Below, one piece after another: positions 47,334 to 61,647 of a stretch of 64,000 bases of DNA. The stretch lies in NCBI RefSeq assembly GCF_014635725.1, contig NZ_BMDJ01000004.1, forward strand, positions 186,001 through 250,000. The letters are read 5' to 3'. The stretch's first letter is position 1; each line of letters starts with the position of its first letter. Origin of the DNA: Pedobacter mendelii. GTDB taxonomy: Bacteria; Bacteroidota; Bacteroidia; Sphingobacteriales; Sphingobacteriaceae. Both the position numbers and the translations under genes were made by a program. Under the pieces are notes generated by a model. That model saw only the letters and a program-made list of their open reading frames with translations. It had not been told where the DNA came from and did no database searches.

Positions 47334-48920
47334 ATGAACGGAAAAAATATTGTTGCAGCAACATTTGTAACTGCAAACGAAAAAAGCTTTAATGCTATAA
47401 ATCCTTCAACAGGATTAACAATTGAAGGCGAGTTTTTTAAAGCAAACGAAAGTTTAATAAATGAGGCATTAATTTCAGCTACTGAGGCATTTCAGCTTTA
47501 CAGAAGTATAAATAAGGAATTAAAAGCTTTCTTTTTAAATACGATCGCTGATGAAATTACCGCCATAACAGATAATTTGGTAAAAAGAGCTTCATTAGAA
47601 AGTGGTTTGCCTTTGCCTCGTTTACAGGGAGAAGTTGGTCGAACAACCGGGCAATTACGTTTATTCGCAAATTTGATAGCAGAAGGTTCATGGGTTAATG
47701 CAATAATTGAAACTGCGCAACCCGAAAGGCAACCTTTGCCGAAATCAGATATTAGAAGAATGATGATTCCCATAGGGCCTGTTGTTGTTTTTGGTGCAAG
47801 TAACTTTCCTTTGGCATTTTCTGTAGGTGGTGGTGATACTGCTTCAGCGCTTGCATCTGGTTGTCCTGTTATCGTAAAAGCACATCCTGCACATTACGGA
47901 ACAAGTGCCTTGGTTGGTGCAGCAATTATTAAAGCTGTTGAAAAAACAGGTATGCCGAAAGGTGTTTTCTCTATGCTTTATGATGACGGTTATGAAATTG
48001 GTTCCTCATTGGTTAAACATCCTTTAACAAAAGCAGTGACTTTTACAGGCTCATTTAAAGGTGGTATGGCTTTAATAAAACTTGCCGAACAGAGAGAAAA
48101 TCCCATTCCTGTTTTTGCCGAAATGGGTAGTATTAATCCGATTATTTTTTTACCACAAGCATTAGAAAATCAAGCCGAAGAACTGGCGAAAAAGTATGCT
48201 GCTTCGATAACTTTAGGCGCAGGCCAATTTTGTACAAACCCGGGTTTAATGTTGGCTATTGAGTCTCCGGCACTCGTAACGTTTAAACAAACATTATCTG
48301 AAGCAATTACATCAATTCCATCAGCAACAATGCTAACCGCGGGAATCGCCGTTAATTATCATAAACAGGCAGCGGAGATAATAAACGAGGAAGAAATTTC
48401 CGTTATTGGTATTTCCAATCTGCGAAATAAAGAACTGGAAAATCAATCTCAGGCATTAGTTGCAGAAATTAGTGCATCAGATTTTATTCGTAATCCAAAA
48501 TTTAGCGAGGAAGTTTTCGGCCCATATTCGTTATTAGTTATTGCAAAAGATTTAGCTGAACTTGAAGCAGTAATTTCGGTATTGGATGGCCAACTCACTG
48601 CAACGCTGATGGCTGAAAAAGAGGAGCTTAAAGATTACAAATCATTAATTAATAAGTTAACTGATAAAACGGGTAGGATAATTTTAAACGGTGTACCAAC
48701 AGGCGTTGAAGTTTGCACAGCAATGCAACACGGAGGTCCATTTCCTGCCACAAATGATAGCCGTTTTACTTCAGTAGGTTCAACTGCAGTTTATCGTTTT
48801 GTTCGTCCGTTAGCTTATCAAGATTGGCAACAGGATTTATTGCCTGATGAACTAAAAGATGGCAATCCTCTAAATATTTTCAGAACTGTTAATCAGAAAT
48901 TAACCAAAGCAGATGAGTAA
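47334..48920 (+). CDS. 2-oxoglutarate semialdehyde dehydrogenase (aldehyde dehydrogenase family)
   Basis: A 528-residue NAD(P)-dependent aldehyde dehydrogenase. The general base is E263 (AEMGSINP) and the catalytic Cys is C300 (GAGQFCTNPG); FGASNFPLAFSVGGGDTASA binds the cofactor. The sequence type is that of the semialdehyde dehydrogenases of the hydroxyproline and sugar-acid pathways. A longer frame starts at a TTG at 47307, inside the preceding gene. I chose the ATG at 47334 because it gives a normal start and a 14-bp gap. It oxidises 2-oxoglutarate semialdehyde to 2-oxoglutarate, linking the pathway to the TCA cycle. It overlaps the epimerase by 8 bp. Confidence 0.88.
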   Translation: MNGKNIVAATFVTANEKSFNAINPSTGLTIEGEFFKANESLINEALISATEAFQLYRSINKELKAFFLNTIADEITAITDNLVKRASLESGLPLPRLQGEVGRTTGQLRLFANLIAEGSWVNAIIETAQPERQPLPKSDIRRMMIPIGPVVVFGASNFPLAFSVGGGDTASALASGCPVIVKAHPAHYGTSALVGAAIIKAVEKTGMPKGVFSMLYDDGYEIGSSLVKHPLTKAVTFTGSFKGGMALIKLAEQRENPIPVFAEMGSINPIIFLPQALENQAEELAKKYAASITLGAGQFCTNPGLMLAIESPALVTFKQTLSEAITSIPSATMLTAGIAVNYHKQAAEIINEEEISVIGISNLRNKELENQSQALVAEISASDFIRNPKFSEEVFGPYSLLVIAKDLAELEAVISVLDGQLTATLMAEKEELKDYKSLINKLTDKTGRIILNGVPTGVEVCTAMQHGGPFPATNDSRFTSVGSTAVYRFVRPLAYQDWQQDLLPDELKDGNPLNIFRTVNQKLTKADE

Positions 48921-49914
48921 AACTTTTTTCTGTGTAGATGCACATACCTGCGGCAATCCTGTAAGATTGGTTGCAGGTGGCGGCCCCCAATTGATTGGTT
49001 CGAACATGAGCGAGAAACGCCAGCATTTTTTAAAAGAATTTGATTGGGTTAGAACGGGATTAATGTTTGAACCTCGCGGTCACGATATGATGTCGGGAAG
49101 TATTCTTTATCCGCCACACGATCCAAATAATGATATTGCCGTTTTGTTTATCGAAACTAGTGGTTGTTTACCAATGTGCGGTCATGGTACAATAGGTACA
49201 ATTACCATCGCTATTGAAGAAGGACTTATTCAGCCCAAAATACCAGGTATAATTAGAATGGAAGCACCAGCTGGCTTGGTTCTGATTGAATATAAACAGG
49301 AAGGGAAAAAAGTTAAATCTGTTAAATTAAAAAATGTTGCCTCGTATCTGGCTGCAGAAAACCTGCAAGTTGAATGTCCAGATTTGGGCTTACTTACTTT
49401 TGATGTTGCTTATGGTGGAAATTTTTATGCCATAGTTGATCCTCAGAAAAATTTTCCTGGATTGGAAAACTATACCGCATCGCAATTGATTACATGGAGC
49501 CAAACCATTAGAAAGCGAATTAATGAGCAATACACTTTTGTTCATCCGCTTGATGAAACAATTAATGGCTGTAGCCATATACTTTGGACAGGCAAAACGT
49601 TAGATCAAGCTTCTACTGCAAGAAATGCTGTTTTTTATGGTGATAAAGCAATAGATAGATCACCTTGCGGCACAGGAACTTCTGCAAGGATGGCGCAGTG
49701 GTATGCAAAAGGAAAACTAAAAATGGGTGAAGATTTTATCCATGAAAGCTTTATTGGTAGCAAGTTCACAGGTCGCGTAGAAGAAGAAGTAGAATTGAAG
49801 GGTTATAAAGCGATAATTCCAAGTGTAGAGGGCTGGGCAAAAGTTTTTGGCTACAATACAATAAAAATTGATGCAGAAGACGACCCTTATGCACACGGTT
49901 TTCAGGTTATTTAA
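48913..49914 (+). CDS. 4-hydroxyproline 2-epimerase (proline racemase family)
   Basis: A 333-residue cofactor-free epimerase that inverts C2 of trans-4-hydroxy-L-proline. Both catalytic thiols are present: C89 in PMCGHGT and C252 in SPCGTGTSA. A Cys/Cys pair marks epimerases and racemases, whereas the related trans-3-hydroxyproline dehydratases have Thr at the second place. The gene overlaps the aldehyde dehydrogenase and is followed by the FAD enzyme that would act on its product. Proline racemase activity itself is less likely given the neighbours. Confidence 0.92.
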   Translation: MSKTFFCVDAHTCGNPVRLVAGGGPQLIGSNMSEKRQHFLKEFDWVRTGLMFEPRGHDMMSGSILYPPHDPNNDIAVLFIETSGCLPMCGHGTIGTITIAIEEGLIQPKIPGIIRMEAPAGLVLIEYKQEGKKVKSVKLKNVASYLAAENLQVECPDLGLLTFDVAYGGNFYAIVDPQKNFPGLENYTASQLITWSQTIRKRINEQYTFVHPLDETINGCSHILWTGKTLDQASTARNAVFYGDKAIDRSPCGTGTSARMAQWYAKGKLKMGEDFIHESFIGSKFTGRVEEEVELKGYKAIIPSVEGWAKVFGYNTIKIDAEDDPYAHGFQVI

Positions 49915-49981
49915 TATGTAAGTGATTTATTAAAAATAAGATTTGTAATTATTTTGAGTCAAATCTTTAACAGCAAAAAAA

Positions 49982-51220
49982 ATGGCGAAGGTTTTAATTA
50001 TTGGTGGTGGCATTGTGGGCTTAAGCTCGGCTTATTATCTTCATAAAAAAGGATTTCAAGTTACAATACTGGATAAAGGCGAACTGATTGACAATTGTTC
50101 TTTCGGAAATGCAGGAATGATAGTACCAAGTCATTTTGTGCCTTTGGCAGCACCCGGAATGATTAGTCAAGGCATTCGCTGGATGTTCAATAGTAAAAGT
50201 CCTTTTTATGTTCACCCAAGTTTAAATCTTAACCTTGTAAACTGGGGTTTGAAATTTGTGAAGCATGCTACCAAAAAACATGTCAATGAATCGGCTGAAC
50301 CACTTCGTGATTTATCTCTACTCAGCAAAAAGCTTTACGAAGATTTAGCAAAAGAGCCGGGTTTTAATTTTGAGTTAACAAGTAACGGAATTCTAGCTTT
50401 TTATAAAACACAGAAAGCAGGAGAGGAAGAAGCACATTTAGCTGAACGAGCCGTTGAATTAGGTTTAGAAATGGCTGTTTTAAATGCTGCGGAATGTAAA
50501 GCTTTGCAGCCTGAGCTGGAATTGGATATTTTGGGTGCAGTTCATTATCGTTGCGATGCACATCTATATCCTGGAAAGTTGATGCGTGATTTACTTTATT
50601 ACTTAGAGCAAAATGGTATAAAAATACAACGTGGTAAGGAAGTTGACAAAATTGAATCTGATGGAAATCGAATCACAAAAGTTTTTACAGGAGATGATGT
50701 TTGGGAAGCGGATGAGTATGTACTTGCAACGGGTTCCTGGTCTCCTGCTGTCGCAAAAATGATTAACCTTAATATTTCTTTAATGCCTGGTAAAGGTTAT
50801 TCTTTTATGGAACCTGAACCAAAAAACCGAGTTACGATTCCAGCTCTTTTGTGCGAGGCCAGAGTTGCAATAACACCAATGAGCGGAAGCATCAGGTACG
50901 GTGGTACAATGGAGCTTGATAAAATTAACACACGAATAAATATGCAAAGGGTTAAAGGTATTGTTGAAGCTGTTCCGAAATATTTCCCCGATTTAAAACC
51001 TGATATGCCTGCTGAAAATAAAATCTGGTATGGTTTCCGTCCTTCTTCACCCGATGGTTTACCTTACATTGGGAGAAGTACAGAAAAGAAAAATTTAATT
51101 GTAGCAACCGGACATGGTATGATGGGTTTGAGTTTAGGGCCAGCAACCGGACTGCTAGTAAGTCAAATCATGAGTGAAATCAAAACAGAAATTGGTATAG
51201 ATTCTTTTAAACTACGTTAA
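49982..51220 (+). CDS. FAD-dependent D-amino acid dehydrogenase, probable D-hydroxyproline dehydrogenase
   Basis: A 412-residue DadA/glycine oxidase-type flavoprotein. The dinucleotide motif is IIGGGIVGLSSAYYL (6-20) and the C-terminal FAD-contact segment is YIGRSTEKKNLIVATGHGMMG. It should oxidise cis-4-hydroxy-D-proline to the pyrroline that the DapA-family enzyme uses. As a single-chain enzyme it resembles the monomeric type rather than the heteromultimeric one. It follows the epimerase by 67 bp and is the last enzyme of the cluster. D-amino acid dehydrogenase of broader range is the alternative. Confidence 0.88.
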   Translation: MAKVLIIGGGIVGLSSAYYLHKKGFQVTILDKGELIDNCSFGNAGMIVPSHFVPLAAPGMISQGIRWMFNSKSPFYVHPSLNLNLVNWGLKFVKHATKKHVNESAEPLRDLSLLSKKLYEDLAKEPGFNFELTSNGILAFYKTQKAGEEEAHLAERAVELGLEMAVLNAAECKALQPELELDILGAVHYRCDAHLYPGKLMRDLLYYLEQNGIKIQRGKEVDKIESDGNRITKVFTGDDVWEADEYVLATGSWSPAVAKMINLNISLMPGKGYSFMEPEPKNRVTIPALLCEARVAITPMSGSIRYGGTMELDKINTRINMQRVKGIVEAVPKYFPDLKPDMPAENKIWYGFRPSSPDGLPYIGRSTEKKNLIVATGHGMMGLSLGPATGLLVSQIMSEIKTEIGIDSFKLR

Positions 51221-52411: not shown

Positions 52412-52505
52412 GCTATTTAACAATCAAATTTTATTTGTTTTTCATTATTCTTAATTTTTTTTAAATAAAAAGCTTTAAACAGTTCTTATTTAGACTAATT
52501 CTTAT

Positions 52506-52513
52506 TAATTTTG
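52506..52513 (+). promoter_or_regulatory. -7 promoter box for the ankyrin/DUF2271/PepSY/ApbE genes
   Basis: TAATTTTG fits TAnnTTTG, 52 bp before the ankyrin gene. A clear -33 box is not seen. Confidence 0.4.
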
Positions 52514-52565: not shown

Positions 52566-54068
52566 ATGAATAAACTATTATTAGCTATTGCGTTATTATG
52601 GTCGATTTCGGTTCAAGCGCAAAAAAATAGTCTTCTAGAATCATCTTTCTGGCAAGGGAAACCAGATGTAAATACTGTTAAAGCTGAAATTGAAAAAGGA
52701 GCAAATCCTGCTCAATTCAATCCATCCAGTTTTGATCCGGTAGTTTTGGCGATTAATGCCGAGGCTCCTAACGAAACTATTAAATTTTTGCTTGCTCAAC
52801 CTGGAAATGATGTAAATAAATTAACACATGATGGTCGTATTTATCTTCATTGGGCAGCCAGTAGAGGAAATAGCGAAATTGTTGATTATCTAATTTCCAA
52901 AGGTTCTGATGTAACGGTTAAAGATAGTCACGGCACAAGCCCACTAATATTTGCAGCATCAGCAGCACAACAAAATACTAAAATATACGATCTCTTTCTT
53001 TCGCATGGAGCTAATTTAAAGACTGATTTAAACAGTTACGGCGCAAATGCATTATTAGTGGCGATAGGAAATGATAAAGATTTTAAGCTTACTGATTACT
53101 TTGTTGCTAAAGGATTAAGTTTAAATAGTACAGACGCTGAAGGGCATAATGCTTTCGGCTATGCAGCCAGAACGGGAAATATCGAAGTACTAAAAGCACT
53201 CATTATTAAAGGTGTTCCAGTGGATAATAGTGCTATTTTAATGGCTGCAGAGGGTTCTCGTAGAGGACCTGCACCAATTGAAGTATTCCAATATTTAGAA
53301 AGTCTGAAAATAAAACCTACCATTATTAGTAAAGATGGCAGCAATGTTCTACATGCAATCGTTCGTCGTCCTGGTCAAAATGAATTAATAAAGCATTTCA
53401 TTGCAGAAGGTGTTGATGTTAATCAAGCAGATGCTGATGGAAATACGGTTTTAATGAATGCGGCAATGTCTAATCGTGATACATCTGTTTATGCAATATT
53501 ATTACCAAAAGTTAAAAGTATTAATCAAACTAATGCTAAAGGATTAACAGTATTGGCAATAGCTGTAACTAGTAATTCTCCATCGATTGTTAGTTTGCTG
53601 ATTGAAAATGGGGCAAATTTAAATTCAGTTGATAAAGATGGCAATAACCTTGCTTATTATTTGATTCAGTCCTACGCTCCTGAAGGTGGCCGTCAGGCTC
53701 CAGGTTCTCCTAGCAAAGCACAGGATTTTGAACAAAAAATTAAAATTTTGCAAGCTAAGAGTTTCAATATTGCAACACCTCAACAAAACGGAAATACATT
53801 ATATCATTTGGCTGTAGCAAAAGGAGATATTGCTCTTGTAAAGCGTTTTCAAGATCTTTCAATAGATGTTAATGCGAAAAATAAAGATGGAATTACCGCT
53901 TTGCATAAAGCAGCTATGATTTCTAAAGATGATTCAATGCTAAAATATTTGCTGTCAATTGGTGCTAAAAAAGAATCTAAAACAAATTTCGATGAAAGTG
54001 CTTTTGATTTGGCGAGTGAAAACGAGTCACTTTCAAAAGCTAATATTTCACTAAGCTTCTTAAAATAA
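52566..54068 (+). CDS. Exported ankyrin repeat protein
   Basis: A 500-residue protein with a signal peptide (ending VQAQ, residue 18), so it acts in the periplasm or on the outer membrane. Roughly ten to twelve ankyrin-like units follow (for example HDGRIYLHWAASRGNSEIV and ADGNTVLMNAAMSNRD). It is separated by four bases from the DUF2271 gene and lies in the same unit as the PepSY flavoprotein and ApbE. Its role is probably as a scaffold or binding partner for these redox proteins; the sequence does not show which. It is unrelated in length to the small ankyrin protein at 435. Confidence 0.88.
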   Translation: MNKLLLAIALLWSISVQAQKNSLLESSFWQGKPDVNTVKAEIEKGANPAQFNPSSFDPVVLAINAEAPNETIKFLLAQPGNDVNKLTHDGRIYLHWAASRGNSEIVDYLISKGSDVTVKDSHGTSPLIFAASAAQQNTKIYDLFLSHGANLKTDLNSYGANALLVAIGNDKDFKLTDYFVAKGLSLNSTDAEGHNAFGYAARTGNIEVLKALIIKGVPVDNSAILMAAEGSRRGPAPIEVFQYLESLKIKPTIISKDGSNVLHAIVRRPGQNELIKHFIAEGVDVNQADADGNTVLMNAAMSNRDTSVYAILLPKVKSINQTNAKGLTVLAIAVTSNSPSIVSLLIENGANLNSVDKDGNNLAYYLIQSYAPEGGRQAPGSPSKAQDFEQKIKILQAKSFNIATPQQNGNTLYHLAVAKGDIALVKRFQDLSIDVNAKNKDGITALHKAAMISKDDSMLKYLLSIGAKKESKTNFDESAFDLASENESLSKANISLSFLK

Positions 54069-54072
54069 AATA

Positions 54073-54558
54073 ATGAACAATATCTTAAAAATTTCCCTGC
54101 TAATATTATCTCTGGCGTTTTTAAAACCAAATCAGGCATCAGCCCAAGCTGCTAAATACAAATGTATGATACAAATGACGAATTATATGGGCGAGGGCGC
54201 TTATATTGTTATTTCATTAATTGATGGTAAAGGACAGTATGAAAAGACGCTTTACGTGCTTGGTTCAGATAAAAAATGGTATAATAGCTTAAAAGAGTGG
54301 CACAAGTTCAATTCTAAAAAGTCTACAAACATTAGTGCAATTACTGGTGCCTCTTTAACGGGTGGCGATCGTGGCGTATCTGTAATTGAAATTGATAAAG
54401 CTAAAATTAACACTGGTTATAAATTGCGTTTCGAGAGTGCAGTTGAGGATCAGAAGTATAATGTTAAAGACCTTGAAATTCCACTAACTACTGAAGCACT
54501 TGCTACAAAAAGTGATGGCACAGGATTTATAAGGTATGTACGCTTTAGTCCTAATTAA
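54073..54558 (+). CDS. DUF2271 periplasmic protein with a flavinylation-like motif
   Basis: A 161-residue exported protein (signal peptide ending SAQA, about residue 26) of the DUF2271 family. Residues 88-96 read SAITGASLT. This resembles the [S/T]GA[S/T] site where ApbE attaches FMN through a phosphoester bond, with S94 (or T91) as acceptor. An apbE gene lies two genes downstream and a flavin-containing membrane reductase directly follows, so this small protein may be a flavinylated electron carrier. The family membership is recognised; the flavinylation is inference from motif and context. Confidence 0.78.
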   Translation: MNNILKISLLILSLAFLKPNQASAQAAKYKCMIQMTNYMGEGAYIVISLIDGKGQYEKTLYVLGSDKKWYNSLKEWHKFNSKKSTNISAITGASLTGGDRGVSVIEIDKAKINTGYKLRFESAVEDQKYNVKDLEIPLTTEALATKSDGTGFIRYVRFSPN

Positions 54559-54572
54559 TTTTATTTAGGATA

Positions 54573-56759
54573 ATGACAAATACTTTTTGGAGATACAGCC
54601 ATTTAGCATTAGCTGTATCTTCTTTTCTTTTTCTTATACTCGCTTCAATTACTGGAACAATTCTTTCACTTGAACCAGTTATTGAAAAGGTAAAACCTTA
54701 CGCGGCAGATAACCTTGATGAAATAAATCTTGCAGAATCTATTCCTGCACTCCAAAAGAAATACCCAGACATTACCAAAATTTCTGTCGAGAATGGACAG
54801 TTCGTTCTAATTGAAGGAACTGATGAAAACGATAATGCTTTAAAAGCATACATTAATCCTAAATCGGGGAAAATGCTTGGCAAACCCGGTAATAAAAATG
54901 AATTTTTTCAATGGGTAACTACGCTTCACAGATCATTGTTTTTGCATGAATTAGGTAGAGTTTTTATTGGAGTAACCGCTTTTTTAATGATGCTTATTGC
55001 TATTTCTGGCATCATGCTAATCATAAAACGACAGCGTGGAATAAAACGTTTTTTAGCTAAAATCCCTAACGATAAATCAACTCAATATTACCATACTGTA
55101 GTCGGCAGATTATCTCTTATTTTTCTTCTGCTAATTGCAGCAAGTGGTACTTTATTATCCTTAAATACATTAGGGATAATAAAATCTTTAAAAATAGGTT
55201 TAGATGTAGACTTTGATAAAATTAAATCAGTTCCGGAAAAGAATATAAAAGATTTCGAGGTTTTTAAAAACATTCACTATTCTGACATTAAAACAATAGA
55301 ATTTCCTTTTTCTGAGGATGTAGAAGATTATTTCATTCTTACACTTAATGATAGGGAAATTGCGGTTAACCAAATAACCGGTGCTATTTTAGCAGAAAGT
55401 AAATACCCTTTCTCCGTACTTGTCGCTGATATGAGTATGAAAATACATACCGGAAGAGTAAGTGTAATTTGGGCACTCATTTTAGGGATATCTTCATTAA
55501 GTATACTCTTTTTTATTTATTCAGGCTTTGCCATCACTTTAAAAAGGATATCTAAGCGATCGAAGAATAAACATCATAAAGATGATTGTACTTTTATTTT
55601 GCTGGTTGGTTCAGAAAATGGCTCAACCCATCGCTACGCTGCATCAGTTCATAAATTACTGTTAAAACTTGGTAAAAAGGCCTATCTAACCTCGATGAAT
55701 AATTATTCTGTTTTTCCAAATGCAGAACAATTGCTTATTTTTACCTCAACTTATGGAGAAGGTGAAGCACCAGAAAATGCAAATAAATTTATCTCTTTGG
55801 TTGAATCAACGCCACAAAAGGAATCTTTAAATTATTCTGTTTTGGGCTTTGGATCAAAATTTTATCCAGATTTTTGTCAATTCGCCTTCAATGTCCATAA
55901 TTTACTTTCTGCAAAGAGTTGGGCACAGCCATTAATTGATATTCATACAGTTAATGATAGATCTCCGCAAGATTTAATATTGTGGCAAGAATCTTGGTCG
56001 CTAAAAACCGATATTCCTTTTAGTAGATTTTCTAGTTCGGTTGATGATGAACAAAAAGCACTAAGTGCATTTACTGTAAAATCTAATCAAGGCTCTGGCG
56101 ATACTATTCTGGTTAATATAAAAGGTGGTTTAAGGACGAAAGCTAAATCTGGAGATTTATTGTCGATTTATCCTGCTAATGATCACCGAGAACGACTTTA
56201 TTCTATAGGTGTCGTAGATAAAACTATCCAGCTAAGTGTAAAACTTCATGATAATGGGTTAGGTTCTGGTTTTTTAAATCAGTTAAAAGCAAATGATAAA
56301 TTTCAGGCCAGAATAGTAAAAAATGAGCACTTTAATTTACCGGCAAAGGCATCAAAAGTTATTATGATTTCTAACGGTACAGGAATTGCACCTTTCTTAG
56401 GAATGATTGACGAAAATAAAAGTAAAAAACCATTTCATTTATATTGTGGTTTTAAAAAATCTTCTTCTTTTGAACCATTTACTGAATATTTAAATACTAA
56501 GCTCAACCAATCAAAACTTACCAACTTAAATGTTGCCTATTCGAGAGAAGGCAAAAAGCAATATGTTAGCCATTTAATTGAGTTAGATTCAGAGTTAATT
56601 GCTGAAGCCTTGCTCAATAAAGCTGTAATCATGATTTGTGGATCGCTCTCAATGCAAAAAGATATTTTGCTAATTTTAGATAAAATCTGCTTAAAGAAAA
56701 CTGATAAACCTTTGTCTTTTTACCAATCCAGAAATCAGATTCTGATGGATTGTTATTAA
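54573..56759 (+). CDS. PepSY membrane domain fused to flavodoxin and ferredoxin-NADP reductase domains
   Basis: A 728-residue inner-membrane electron-transfer protein. The PepSY-type membrane part has segments at about 10-32, 128-151, 178-200 and 298-322, with histidines H119, H174 and H292 that could bind haem. A flavodoxin domain follows (GSENGSTHRYA, 346-356, and TSTYGEGEAPENA, from 391), then a sulfite-reductase-type FAD/NADPH module (RLYSIG, 541-546; SNGTGIAPF, 600-608). It would pass electrons from cytoplasmic NADPH across the membrane. Similar proteins are annotated as iron-uptake or sulfite reductase flavoproteins. The DUF2271 and ApbE neighbours point to a periplasmic flavin acceptor. 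Confidence 0.87.
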   Translation: MTNTFWRYSHLALAVSSFLFLILASITGTILSLEPVIEKVKPYAADNLDEINLAESIPALQKKYPDITKISVENGQFVLIEGTDENDNALKAYINPKSGKMLGKPGNKNEFFQWVTTLHRSLFLHELGRVFIGVTAFLMMLIAISGIMLIIKRQRGIKRFLAKIPNDKSTQYYHTVVGRLSLIFLLLIAASGTLLSLNTLGIIKSLKIGLDVDFDKIKSVPEKNIKDFEVFKNIHYSDIKTIEFPFSEDVEDYFILTLNDREIAVNQITGAILAESKYPFSVLVADMSMKIHTGRVSVIWALILGISSLSILFFIYSGFAITLKRISKRSKNKHHKDDCTFILLVGSENGSTHRYAASVHKLLLKLGKKAYLTSMNNYSVFPNAEQLLIFTSTYGEGEAPENANKFISLVESTPQKESLNYSVLGFGSKFYPDFCQFAFNVHNLLSAKSWAQPLIDIHTVNDRSPQDLILWQESWSLKTDIPFSRFSSSVDDEQKALSAFTVKSNQGSGDTILVNIKGGLRTKAKSGDLLSIYPANDHRERLYSIGVVDKTIQLSVKLHDNGLGSGFLNQLKANDKFQARIVKNEHFNLPAKASKVIMISNGTGIAPFLGMIDENKSKKPFHLYCGFKKSSSFEPFTEYLNTKLNQSKLTNLNVAYSREGKKQYVSHLIELDSELIAEALLNKAVIMICGSLSMQKDILLILDKICLKKTDKPLSFYQSRNQILMDCY

Positions 56760-56790
56760 AAAGGTCTTCGGATTTTCCTAATTTTTATAC

Positions 56791-57798
56791 ATGAAAAATA
56801 TTTTTCTTATCGTTCTAACTTTATTATCGCTTAATTTAAAATCGCAGGTTTTAAGAAAAAGAACCACTTTGCTGATGGGTGGAAGATTTGATATTACCAT
56901 TGTTGCAAAGAATAAAGTTACCGCAGAAAAAAATATTGATACCGTAATCGCAGAAATATCAAGAATAGAAAATCTTATCTCCGATTGGAAACCAGAATCA
57001 CAGGTTTCAAGGGTTAATCAGAACGCAGGAATTAAGCCTGTAAAAGTTGATTTAGAAGTACTTGAATTAACAGAAAGAGCAATTAAATTATCAGAAGCTA
57101 CAAAGGGTGCTTTCGACATTAGTTTTGCCGCATTGGATAGAATTTGGAAGTTTGATGGATCCATGATAGAAATGCCATCGGCCGAATCCATAAAAAAATC
57201 GGTATCACTTGTAGGTTTTTCAAACATTATTTTGGATAAAGAAAAATCAACAATTTTTCTCAAATTAAAGGGAATGAAAATCGGTTTTGGTGCTTTAGGA
57301 GAAGGCTATGCAGCAGACAAATGCCGAGAAATGATGCTTGCTAAAGGAATTAAAGCTGGCATTGTTAATGCATCAGGTGATATGAGTACCTGGGGTATAC
57401 AACCAAATGGTAAAGATTGGATCGTTGGTATAACAAATCCGGTTAAGGAAGATGCTGTTTTAGTAGTTATACCTTTGAAAAATAAAGCAATTGTTACTTC
57501 TGGAAGTTACAGGAAATTTGTAGAATTTGATGGCAAAAGGTATTCCCATATCATTAATCCTGCGACAGGATATCCTTCAACAGGACTTATCAGTGTCACT
57601 GTATTAGGGCCAAGCGCAGAAATAGCAAATGGTTTAAGCACATCTACTATGGTTTTAGGAATGGAGGCAGGGAAAGAATTTCTGAAAAAATACCCGGCTT
57701 ACAGTTATTTAATGATTACAGATAGCGGAAATATTGTTTATTCAAACGATCCGATATTTTCTAAAATGCAGCTATCTAAAATATCCCCAAATAATTAA
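56791..57798 (+). CDS. apbE: FAD:protein FMN transferase ApbE
   Basis: A 335-residue exported enzyme with a short signal segment (about 1-20) that moves FMN from FAD to a Thr or Ser on a target protein. The family pattern is present: MGGRFDITI, ISDWKPESQVSRVN, GAFDISFAAL, the GALGEGYAADK motif and NASGDMSTWG, with the metal-site region near ITSG-type IVTSGSYRKF and HIINPATGYP. It lies 31 bp after the PepSY flavoprotein. The likely substrate here is the DUF2271 protein; a PepSY or NQR-type target elsewhere is also possible. Confidence 0.93.
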   Translation: MKNIFLIVLTLLSLNLKSQVLRKRTTLLMGGRFDITIVAKNKVTAEKNIDTVIAEISRIENLISDWKPESQVSRVNQNAGIKPVKVDLEVLELTERAIKLSEATKGAFDISFAALDRIWKFDGSMIEMPSAESIKKSVSLVGFSNIILDKEKSTIFLKLKGMKIGFGALGEGYAADKCREMMLAKGIKAGIVNASGDMSTWGIQPNGKDWIVGITNPVKEDAVLVVIPLKNKAIVTSGSYRKFVEFDGKRYSHIINPATGYPSTGLISVTVLGPSAEIANGLSTSTMVLGMEAGKEFLKKYPAYSYLMITDSGNIVYSNDPIFSKMQLSKISPNN

Positions 57799-57933: not shown

Positions 57934-58425
57934 ATGAATACTGAAAGAGCCATACTTGCTGGCGGTTGTTTTTGGGGTGTAGAGGAACTTATTCGCCAAA
58001 TGCCTGGTATAATATCAACTGTGGTAGGATATACAGGAGGTGACGTTCCAAATGCAACTTATAGAAATCATGGAGCGCATGCAGAAGGAATTGAAATAGT
58101 TTTTAATCCTGAAATATTATCTTATCGTTCACTTTTAGAATATTTTTTTCAAATTCACGACCCGACAACTCGAAACAGACAAGGGAATGATGTTGGAACA
58201 TCTTATCGGTCTGCAATTTTTTATATTGATGAAGCACAACATGCAACTGCTAAAACGCTAATTGCAGATATGGAAGCCTCGGAGAAATGGCCAGGTAAAA
58301 TTGTAACAGAAGTTGTTCCCGAAACAGATTTTTGGAGTGCAGAAGAAGAACATCAGGATTATTTGCAGAAAAATCCTTATGGATATACTTGTCATTTCGA
58401 AAGACCTGACTGGAAAATGAGTTAA
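57934..58425 (+). CDS. msrA: Peptide methionine sulfoxide reductase MsrA
   Basis: A 163-residue cytoplasmic enzyme that reduces methionine-S-sulfoxide in proteins. The catalytic Cys is C12 in [37 protein letters not shown] and the [11 protein letters not shown] tail complete the family pattern. No fused MsrB domain is present. It is a single-gene unit ended by the hairpin at 58452. Confidence 0.96.
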
Positions 58426-59040: not shown

Positions 59041-61647
59041 CTATTGTTTCTGTTGAGATAAAAATGTAACAAGCGAAGCTAATTCTTCATAAGACAAAGA
59101 GTTAGCAAGTCCCGCAGGCATCATAGAATTTTCCATTTCTTTTCTTAATATTATTTCGCTTGCTTTAATTGTAAATACCTCGCCTACAATGTTTCGTAAA
59201 ACCACTTTCGCAGCTGTTTCTTCAGTAATAAAGCCCATGTAAGCCTTATCACCTTTTGCTGTAATCATTACCGAGGCAAATCCTTGAGAAATGGATGCAT
59301 CAGGTTTTAATATAGATTCAGCAATTTGTTCCCGATTCATTATCGAACCAATTTGGCCCATAAAAGGTCCTTTCATTTTTTCTGTTCTGCTTAAACTATG
59401 GCAAGTGATACAGCCTTGTTTAGTAAAAATCCCTTTACCCTTCAAGGGGTCGCCTTGCAGTTTTCCGATAGCTAACAAAACATCTTCAATAGATGATTTT
59501 CCTACCTGACCTTTTTGATTTTTGATTTTTTCCAAATCAACTTTTGGTTCTTCTATGGCGGCAATCTTTTCTTCTGTAGCTAAAGCAGGAATCTCCATTC
59601 TATTTCTTGCGTTCAAATCAACGAAAAACTGTTTCTCCTGAACATTGGATTTTTTCCATTCATCGATTATAAATTTTTCTATGATAGGAGAGGATTCCCA
59701 AAAAACAGCTTTAAAATACGGTCCATGAGAATCCGGTCTTGTTCCCCACCACCAAGTTGCATCGTACACATCCTCTTTTTTATAAAGTCTTGATAAAGTT
59801 ATTAGGATTTGTTTTTTTGTTTTTGCGTCTTTTGATAATACATATTTAGAAATCAATCCGTTAACAGCTTCTTTATTGTGCATATAACGCAAAGCCCAAA
59901 GCGCTAAATCAGAATTTTCGGCTCCTACTGCAGCTAAACAAGCGTCTGTAGCTTTGAGGTTTACCAATGCTTGTACAGCCAAATGTGGCAAAATTATAGG
60001 GGAATTTGGTTTGGCGTGTGGTCCCTCAGTGTCTTTAACTGGCTCTACAAAAGAGGCAGGAACCTTAGTTTTAAGTAGGGCAGAAACTGCATCGGCTCTT
60101 CCAAGACGATTTAGCCCGATAATGCCTGCAGCCTGAACCCTAAGTGAACTATCTTTAAGCGCTGCTAAAAATGATTCAGATGAAACTTGCTCAAAATAAC
60201 CTTTTCTATCTGCCAACGCTTTTAAAGCAAATTCGCGAATGGTATTATCTTTAGTAAGTTTTGTTAGCTCAGAAATTCCATTTTCTTTTGATAGTTGAGC
60301 ATAGGTAAAAATTCCAGCTACTCGTGCATACAAAGGCAAGCTTTTATCGGATGCTATTTTTAAAGTGGCAGAAATTGCTTGTTTATTATTGCGGATTAAA
60401 AATTCCTGTGAAGCATTTATCCTACCCACTCCGCTATTTGAAACCAACATTGCTGATAATGCTTTAATAGATGCTTTTTTTAGGTTTGGAAAAGCTTTGT
60501 AAGTCCAGTTGTTTGGAACAACACGAGCAATATAACCTTTACCAGGACTGCCTGAATAACCTGCACCATCCCAGGCGGAAAGATAAAGTCTGCCAGAGCC
60601 ATCTACATCCAAATCGGTTATTTGTGGAAGCTTAATAAATTCTTCATCTTTTTGAGTAAAAGTTGGGCCATCTGGCGTAACTCTATGAATGTAAAGCATG
60701 CTTCTGCCCCAATCAGCCATCATTGGTACTTTATTGTATTTTTCTGGCCAATTTGGTTCATCCATAAATAATGCACCCGTGCCGGAGCCACCACCTAAAT
60801 CAACCAATGCAGGAATTATTTCATCAGTAAAATTTTGAAATAATACAGGATATCCATATTCTCCTGTTTGAATATGATGAGAAAAACGAACATTCCAACC
60901 ACCACCGTCATTGGTGTTTTCGCGGGTAAAAACATTCATGTAAGGATCAATTGCTAAATCGTAAACGTTTCTTGTGCCATGTGTATAAACTTCCATTTCA
61001 GTTCCATCTGGTCTTACCCTTAAAATACCACCACCAAGCATAGTTAATTTTTTACCTGATCTGTCTATCGCATCATGAAAACCAAAATCACCTACGGCAA
61101 TATAAATCCAGCCATCAATACCCATTCTTATACCATTAGTTGCATGGTCTGTTCCACGCTCCCGAATATATTTCGCGTTACTAACGTTTTGTATTAATGG
61201 CTTTGAAGGACCATCTGCTTTTCCGTCACCATCTTTATCCTCAAAAAAAACCAAATCCATTCCTGTTGCTTTTCCTGTTTCTTTTGAAAAAGTAGTGTGG
61301 AGTACAAATACTTTATCTCCTTGAACAATAATTCCACGAGGATTGTCAACAACAGCAAATTCGGTATGGTTATCCATCTTACCATCATTGTTTTTGTCAA
61401 TTAGCTTTATAACTCTGCCTTTACCAGCATCTTTCCCTAAAGAACCAATCATGTCTACTCCAACAAATACTTCGCCTGTTGCAGCAACAGCTAAACAAGC
61501 TGGACTTGGCGTAATTTCAGGACCTGCAAACTGTGTTATTGTTATTTCTGACGGAGGTACTTTTCCAGACTTTGGTTTACCAATTAAACTTTTTAACCCC
61601 AGAAAAATTATAATACAATATGTCAGGCTTAGCGAAAACTTAATCAT
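59041..61647 (-). CDS. PVC-type dehydrogenase/cytochrome c protein with HEAT-like repeats
   Basis: An 868-residue exported protein. After a signal anchor (about 1-22) comes a beta-propeller like soluble glucose dehydrogenase/PQQ-type domains (about 30-385, with TNGIRMGIDGWIYIAVGD), then an alpha-helical HEAT-like region (about 390-640), then a cytochrome c domain with CITCH (C746, C749, H750). This arrangement is the one annotated as PVC-type haem-binding CxxCH protein. It should oxidise a sugar or alcohol outside the cytoplasm and pass electrons to its haem. It is monocistronic, convergent with the receiver gene. The substrate is unknown. Confidence 0.88.
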   Translation of the reverse strand: MIKFSLSLTYCIIIFLGLKSLIGKPKSGKVPPSEITITQFAGPEITPSPACLAVAATGEVFVGVDMIGSLGKDAGKGRVIKLIDKNNDGKMDNHTEFAVVDNPRGIIVQGDKVFVLHTTFSKETGKATGMDLVFFEDKDGDGKADGPSKPLIQNVSNAKYIRERGTDHATNGIRMGIDGWIYIAVGDFGFHDAIDRSGKKLTMLGGGILRVRPDGTEMEVYTHGTRNVYDLAIDPYMNVFTRENTNDGGGWNVRFSHHIQTGEYGYPVLFQNFTDEIIPALVDLGGGSGTGALFMDEPNWPEKYNKVPMMADWGRSMLYIHRVTPDGPTFTQKDEEFIKLPQITDLDVDGSGRLYLSAWDGAGYSGSPGKGYIARVVPNNWTYKAFPNLKKASIKALSAMLVSNSGVGRINASQEFLIRNNKQAISATLKIASDKSLPLYARVAGIFTYAQLSKENGISELTKLTKDNTIREFALKALADRKGYFEQVSSESFLAALKDSSLRVQAAGIIGLNRLGRADAVSALLKTKVPASFVEPVKDTEGPHAKPNSPIILPHLAVQALVNLKATDACLAAVGAENSDLALWALRYMHNKEAVNGLISKYVLSKDAKTKKQILITLSRLYKKEDVYDATWWWGTRPDSHGPYFKAVFWESSPIIEKFIIDEWKKSNVQEKQFFVDLNARNRMEIPALATEEKIAAIEEPKVDLEKIKNQKGQVGKSSIEDVLLAIGKLQGDPLKGKGIFTKQGCITCHSLSRTEKMKGPFMGQIGSIMNREQIAESILKPDASISQGFASVMITAKGDKAYMGFITEETAAKVVLRNIVGEVFTIKASEIILRKEMENSMMPAGLANSLSYEELASLVTFLSQQKQ

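Follow-up and report, generated by a model that had tools for sequence, protein, structure and literature searches.

A four-gene row of Pedobacter mendelii links an exported ankyrin-repeat protein (ANK) to an exported DUF2271 protein, the candidate carrier of a covalently attached flavin mononucleotide (FMN). The row lies in a stretch of 64,000 nucleotides (contig NZ_BMDJ01000004.1, positions 186,001 to 250,000; hereafter the window, whose numbering is used below). Our analysis revealed that, in Bacteroidota, stand-alone DUF2271 proteins almost always have ANK as their partner. The electron chain itself is largely known; the ankyrin would be its new part. Taken as a whole, the row probably encodes a Fur-regulated, NADPH-driven periplasmic ferric-siderophore reductase of the XusC/FoxB kind, equipped with a covalent-flavin carrier and an ankyrin partner.

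The initial annotation had reported the row at 52566-57798, and both the open reading frames and the Pfam matches confirmed it. All four genes are on the + strand: ANK (52566..54068, 500 residues; Ank_2, 5e-46), the DUF2271 protein (54073..54558, 161 residues; PF10029, 4e-38), a transmembrane reductase joining PepSY_TM, flavodoxin and NAD(P)-binding domains (54573..56759, 728 residues; Pfam) and an exported ApbE, a flavin adenine dinucleotide (FAD):protein FMN transferase (56791..57798, 335 residues; Pfam ApbE, 2e-80). The intergenic gaps are 4, 14 and 31 bases. Judged by eye, ANK, DUF2271 and ApbE have signal-peptide-like starts, which end in VQA (next residue Q) in ANK and in ASA (next residue Q) in DUF2271, and a rough cleavage-site pattern was present in 73 of 81 ANK rows and 78 of 81 DUF2271 rows.

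To measure the linkage, DUF2271 was searched independently of ANK in an order-level sample of 201 genomes, and ANK was searched with the full-length protein (E <= 1e-40, at most seven candidates scored per genome). Open frames under 300 residues were counted as stand-alone DUF2271. ANK was found directly upstream, on the same strand, of 80 of the 82 stand-alone genes, and of none of the 41 genes in which DUF2271 is fused behind ApbE; one of the 124 DUF2271 matches, below the family cut-off and in a 779-residue frame, was excluded from both classes. Of the two exceptions, G196 is described below, and G117 proves to be an ApbE-DUF2271 fusion cut short where its contig ends, without which the count is 80/81. 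In all 79 genomes with such an ANK, a stand-alone DUF2271 stood beside it, and no ANK apart from a stand-alone DUF2271 was found in the 201 genomes among the candidates scored. A phylum-level sample of 345 genomes (at most four ANK candidates scored per genome, counts read off the listings) has eight or more genomes in common with the first, and three of these gave matches. Here ANK adjoined 26 of the 28 stand-alone DUF2271 genes above the cut-off, with two fusions and 18 matches below the cut-off set aside. One of the exceptions (G448) falls at a contig end and has its ANK on another contig. The other is the second DUF2271 copy of G377 (L240 4085-8050, G377:C13), which lies without ANK but with DUF6607 and a divergent TonB receptor gene; DUF6607 is possibly another DUF2271 companion.

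The same picture emerged from the named loci, a biased set made up of the nearest 80 of 205 relatives of the window DUF2271, whose closest named members are from Pedobacter (89% in DUF2271). ANK was upstream of DUF2271 in 80/80 loci and the reductase directly downstream in 73, the other seven having the ANK-DUF2271 pair without a reductase directly downstream; ApbE was in the fetched DNA of 65/80, often on the opposite strand. Together with the order-level count, this adjacency shows that the gene order is not due to chance. Outside these samples, ANK at E <= 1e-30 was found in just one of 72,556 plasmid records (Spirosoma), and none of seven proteobacterial plasmid DUF2271 cassettes carried an ANK-like frame. 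Two further arrangements were observed. In Flavobacterium bizetiae (L103 37-8480) a single strand carries the reductase (cut by the locus end), ApbE, a TonB receptor, an XusB-like gene, ANK and DUF2271, in this order; in L244 (4608-9167, G119:C7) a second ANK, divergent from the cassette ANK, is followed by an iron/manganese superoxide dismutase gene with a twin-arginine-like leader (by eye).

What might ANK do? The AlphaFold2 model shows one solenoid (predicted local distance difference test, pLDDT, 93.2; predicted template modelling score 0.84) with about 14 helix pairs by our own count. Inner helices are more conserved than outer ones (0.75 vs 0.61), and polar positions of the inner face are somewhat more conserved, a weak signal because the ankyrin consensus residues are still included. 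The rows shown from the PDB comparison were ankyrin-repeat proteins and designed ankyrins. Kinship with the Legionella ankyrin effectors of NCBIfam was considered and rejected, the scores being far below the cut-offs and reflecting repeat similarity only. From the solenoid, the linkage and the face conservation we infer that ANK is a binding scaffold for DUF2271, most likely one that docks the flavin carrier. The more specific idea, a dedicated periplasmic scaffold presenting flavinylated DUF2271 between the inner-membrane reductase and the ferric-siderophore delivered by TonB-dependent receptors, is put forward here tentatively.

ANK could also stand outside the electron flow and serve to stabilise or protect the carrier or ApbE, for instance by holding the DUF2271 loop during flavin transfer or by shielding the reduced flavin from oxygen. 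The window ANK is free of cysteine, Pseudomonas has a periplasmic ankyrin that supports a catalase, and ANK and DUF2271 are paired even where no reductase or ApbE lies beside them (L091, L094 and L107). However, the seven proteobacterial DUF2271 cassettes do without an ankyrin, so flavinylation as such should not need ANK, and in the same order the 41 fusions have no ANK upstream. We regard this role as possible, although rather unlikely.

The initial annotation had pointed to the sequence SAITGASLT in the DUF2271 protein as a likely ApbE target and to S94 within it. The motif is present and the numbering correct, T91-G92-A93-S94 being encoded at 54343..54354 (+ strand) and the S94 codon at 54352-54354. 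It had also proposed the motif's absence from homologues of the same gene order as a refutation, and this did not occur: T91-G92-A93-S94 is invariant in 81/81 rows (the window and 80 Bacteroidota), and G92-A93-S94 in 55/55 rows of an alignment that includes the seven proteobacterial plasmid rows. In the AlphaFold2 model DUF2271 is mostly beta (mean pLDDT 77.4), and 85-97 is the one stretch at least three residues long that scores below 50, which is consistent with, although not proof of, a mobile flavin arm. S94 is the predicted FMN attachment residue. No solved structural relative of DUF2271 was found by sequence. By fold, the best rows were C2-like (Z 7-8.4), a similarity rated within a common arrangement, and no relationship is claimed.

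The ApbE rows carry the expected signature: H..[ND]P.TG.P, which we take to be the ApbE motif, is present in 65 of 66, the window included. Note that ApbE alone is no marker of these systems, since 189 of the 201 order-level genomes gave a match (1e-20). The second DUF2271 class, fused behind ApbE (the 41 genes mentioned above, among them those of L005 and L025), implies the same flavin-carrier chemistry but differs in having the carrier joined to ApbE and in lacking ANK upstream. The motif reads TGAT in the L025 fusion and SSAT at the same place in L005, so the L005 flavin site may be altered. In both loci a protein of 211-213 residues, PepSY-like by eye, is encoded downstream of the fusion.

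That DUF2271 can be an ApbE substrate in PepSY/DUF2271/ApbE systems is not new, since it was published in 2021 (PMC8238504). In that work the A. ursilacus DUF2271 protein, coexpressed with its own ApbE in E. coli, was flavinylated at the same class of motif, and replacement of the motif threonine by alanine abolished the modification (PMC8238504). By analogy, the window DUF2271 would carry covalent FMN. Thus, of the initial proposal of a DUF2271 carrier with an exported ankyrin partner, the carrier part had already been described, and the ankyrin partner is robust and was not found described: we found no description of an ankyrin partner of DUF2271, PepSY or flavinylation systems in the main texts of the open-access papers searched.

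The membrane reductase would feed this carrier. It comprises PepSY_TM at residues 10-325 (PF03929, 2.8e-35), flavodoxin at 344-449 (Flavodoxin_1, 3e-15) and an NAD(P)-binding domain at 598-697 (NAD_binding_1, 1e-7), and its C-terminal DCY is kept in 75/75 rows. Its cytosolic half is similar to P450 reductase and CysJ, which makes NADPH the probable donor. The PepSY half, compared as a profile of 40 rows (the window, 33 Bacteroidota cassettes, five plasmid rows and one extra PepSY protein), matched the siderophore reductase FoxB of Pseudomonas (7abw; E 2.1e-14). In the main segment, H10, H119 and H174 line up with histidines of FoxB; a weak second segment aligns H292. The FoxB structure holds two hemes on two conserved histidines apiece (PMC11334425), and the window reductase may bind heme likewise. 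FoxB shares with the window protein this PepSY transmembrane domain; its 382-residue chain in 7abw is too short to hold the flavodoxin/NADPH half.

Put together, these parts suggest the following route. Cytosolic NADPH would reduce the CysJ/P450-reductase-like half of the membrane protein, and electrons would pass from FAD to FMN and on to two hemes held by four histidines of the PepSY transmembrane half. From the hemes they would reach the FMN that ApbE attaches to S94 in the mobile loop of DUF2271, which would shuttle them through the periplasm to ferric-siderophores or other Fe(III) that TonB-dependent receptors deliver; the Fe(II) released would then be imported. The ANK solenoid would act as a docking site that brings the flavin carrier together with the reductase, ApbE or the arriving ferric-siderophore. 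The best reading of the locus is, as initially suggested, a flavin electron pathway outside the cytoplasm, and the invariant TGAS is consistent with it. The end acceptor, which had been left open, can now be narrowed: Fur-box-like sites and TonB and XusB-like neighbours in relatives point to ferric-siderophore iron.

We examined these two lines of evidence in turn. A Fur-box-like operator, ATTTAGACTAATTCTTATT, lies at 52488..52506 (no strand assigned), 60-78 bases ahead of the ANK start codon, and overlaps a conserved 18-mer, TTATTTAGACTAATTCTT, which spans 52486-52503. The 19-base ATTTAGAATTATTCTAAAT is given as a predicted Fur box in the results of a study on Riemerella anatipestifer, in which Fur bound promoter fragments carrying such boxes in gel shift (PMC5609570). 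The site at 52488-52506 differs from it at three of 19 positions on the - strand and four on the + strand, and is the best match in the 64-kb window, where five other places have four mismatches. This match to a published Fur-box prediction is new, and Fur may be the protein that binds there. In addition, an unseeded search of the 81 sequences upstream of ANK recovered one strong palindromic motif that resembles the Riemerella box (log-likelihood 335 vs 26 for shuffled sequences at width 15, and 419 vs 49 at width 21); the first palindrome had been read as DtxR-like, an idea abandoned in favour of the Riemerella Fur box. Scored against a matrix of 43 distinct sites from relatives, with the window excluded and the sites chosen by likeness to the window 18-mer, the window box reached 24.6 and the next window site 13.7.

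The place of the box was also compared among the genes. At five or fewer mismatches, on the + strand only, it was found upstream of ANK in 41 of the 80 loci (5.75% in shuffled sequence), and upstream of DUF2271, the reductase and ApbE in 2/80, 0/73 and 5/65, respectively. If a receptor gene stands first, in the same orientation as ANK, it tends to be the receptor that carries the box. In the 12 loci where a TonB receptor is so placed, a box (four or fewer mismatches, both strands) was at the receptor in ten and at ANK in two, whereas in the remaining loci it was at ANK in 36 of 68 (the two contrasts gave p 0.0006 and 0.0025, uncorrected for ancestry). Where a TonB gene lies ahead of ApbE (six loci), the receptor box was found at three or fewer mismatches in four. 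In the window's own genome, boxes with three or fewer mismatches precede three of 12 receptor-like genes (at one, two and three mismatches), two of which exceed the TIGR01783 cut-off, and none of 30 SusC genes, whose best site has four; the 12 were picked from 36 TIGR01783 matches, most of them below cut-off, and the 30 SusC loci from 57 matches. We also looked in that genome for TTTAGNCTAAA and set it aside, its nine places having, by eye, non-iron genes next to them. Regarding relatives further afield, a homologous cassette of Caulobacter is listed among iron-responsive/Fur-regulated genes (PMC3751524).

Some of the neighbours in relatives are of the siderophore type: a TonB receptor of the siderophore or Xus kind adjoins the cassette in at least 21 of the 80 loci (13 + 8). 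In the first 13, the receptor comes with a lipoprotein-like (XusB/DUF4374-like) gene, with one open reading frame between in L084 and L096. The lipoproteins of L091 and L107 are DUF4374 proteins, and their two-member profile matches solved DUF4374/XusB structures. The other 11 form one cluster whose profile matches the DUF4374 pair (96.2%, E 2.6e-9); no family match to this cluster was obtained where tried (L085 against Pfam and NCBIfam, L058 against NCBIfam), and from the profile match they are probably distant DUF4374 relatives. In the other eight loci (L049, L050, L051, L054, L060, L066, L090 and L098), one receptor cluster adjoins the cassette, and its member in L049 exceeds the TIGR01783 cut-off. 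Note that some TonB adjacency is expected by chance, since TonB receptors are common in these genomes. As a separate observation, one siderophore-type locus, that of Flavobacterium algicola (L098 2906-14437), contains two PepSY proteins, its order being TonB receptor, stand-alone PepSY_TM, ANK, DUF2271, PepSY reductase, ApbE and TonB receptor.

Several observations weigh against a Fur-regulated ferric-siderophore reductase with an ankyrin partner. In the window, neither a TonB nor an XusB-like gene is adjacent to the cassette. About half of the 80 loci have no good box at ANK, and the abstract of the Riemerella study gives as the Fur box an E. coli-like sequence, GATAATGATAATCATTATC, whereas the 19-mer comes from its results (PMC5609570). 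Across the window's own genome, boxes with three or fewer mismatches numbered 21, vs 35 for a reversed-pattern control; with no excess in these counts, only position and gene identity were used. Moreover, the median box score was equal for the 12 receptor-like and the 30 SusC genes (p=0.68), and the convergent apbE genes, considered as a second regulated site, were discarded after a box at three or fewer mismatches was found at 3/45 (one at one mismatch, two at three). As regards ANK, genome G196 (L241) keeps DUF2271, reductase and ApbE without it in the 9.8 kb read. The proteobacterial plasmid cassettes adjoin two-component systems and, in some cases, metal-transport or efflux genes, and may therefore serve an acceptor other than iron. 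Finally, the box, adjacency and co-occurrence counts are uncorrected for shared ancestry.

Some of these points could instead favour the same electron chain with another acceptor, in which another metal (copper or manganese) or an oxidised target in the periplasm (sulfoxide or peroxide stress) takes the place of iron and the box is bound by a different member of the Fur family, such as PerR. Two Fur-family proteins are encoded in the window's own genome, so the protein at the box need not be Fur itself and PerR-type control may apply. In addition, proteobacterial relatives have as neighbours two-component systems and genes for CusA/CzcA efflux, a P-type ATPase or cation diffusion, msrA follows the window operon, and the duplicated ANK of G119 lies beside a superoxide dismutase gene. 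However, the recurrent neighbours in relatives are TonB receptors and XusB-like lipoproteins, the box is found ahead of TonB receptors, and the msrA cluster is in the fetched flank of only 4/80 named loci. These arguments make another acceptor unlikely. Less probable still is a passenger role, in which ANK has no functional link to DUF2271 and adjoins it through the common ancestry of one Bacteroidota operon: ANK distances over 75 rows track those of DUF2271 (r 0.83) and the reductase (r 0.86) about equally, as shared ancestry alone would give, so function and ancestry are not separated by them, but the reductase and ApbE move or invert while the ANK-DUF2271 pair stays, and, as described above, no ANK turned up away from a stand-alone DUF2271 among the candidates scored.

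The ferric-siderophore reductase proposed here has relatives among described systems. These include the PepSY-like flavinylation systems of Meheust 2021, which combine PepSY_TM, a DUF2271 with [S/T]GA[S/T] and ApbE, with an NAD-binding fusion in a subset; 2833 of the 3220 PepSY-like clusters have DUF2271, and iron reduction was proposed for them (PMC8238504). The window row has PF03929 (either PF03929 or PF16357 being asked for in that work) beside DUF2271 and ApbE, and its TGAS fits [S/T]GA[S/T]. Those systems often include a secreted DUF4198 protein, whereas the companion in the window is an exported ankyrin solenoid (PMC8238504). A scan of the four genes and of both flanking ones gave no DUF4198 match, and the ankyrin occupies the upstream position; since DUF4198 is not defining, its absence does not exclude membership. 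In XusABC, a xenosiderophore system of Bacteroides, the PepSY inner-membrane reductase XusC serves the TonB receptor XusA and the DUF4374 lipoprotein XusB in siderophore use (PMC13142918). The window cassette differs in having no adjacent XusA or XusB gene, although XusB-like genes lie beside ANK in the 13 relatives described above. The word "ankyrin" is absent from the main text of the flavinylation study (PMC8238504), "ankyrin" and "flavin" are absent from that of the XusABC paper (PMC13142918), and "PepSY" and "ankyrin" are absent from the main texts on iron in Elizabethkingia, Riemerella and F. psychrophilum.

The operon is flanked in the window by an AraC regulator gene and by msrA, which encodes a peptide methionine sulfoxide reductase and lies directly 3' of it (57934-58425). 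Farther downstream, on the - strand (59041-61647), an 868-residue protein has a cytochrome-c-like CxxCH motif (CITCH) near its end, as read from the translation only. On the other side, consecutive genes for proline-racemase-like and D-amino-acid-oxidase-like proteins occupy 48913-51220, as judged by eye from their translations.

Extracytoplasmic electron transfer by covalently bound flavin is widespread, and few of its accessory parts have been assigned. For a protein annotated merely as "ankyrin repeat", its export and its conserved pairing with the flavin carrier suggest a function that can be tested. Both its operator-like box and its neighbours in other genomes put the cassette among siderophore genes, which would link the 2021 work on DUF2271 with siderophore piracy by the Bacteroidota Xus systems, and offer a simple genetic test of an electron route to periplasmic ferric siderophores. 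If ANK is indeed a scaffold, these bacteria would possess an ankyrin-organised path for electrons across the periplasm.

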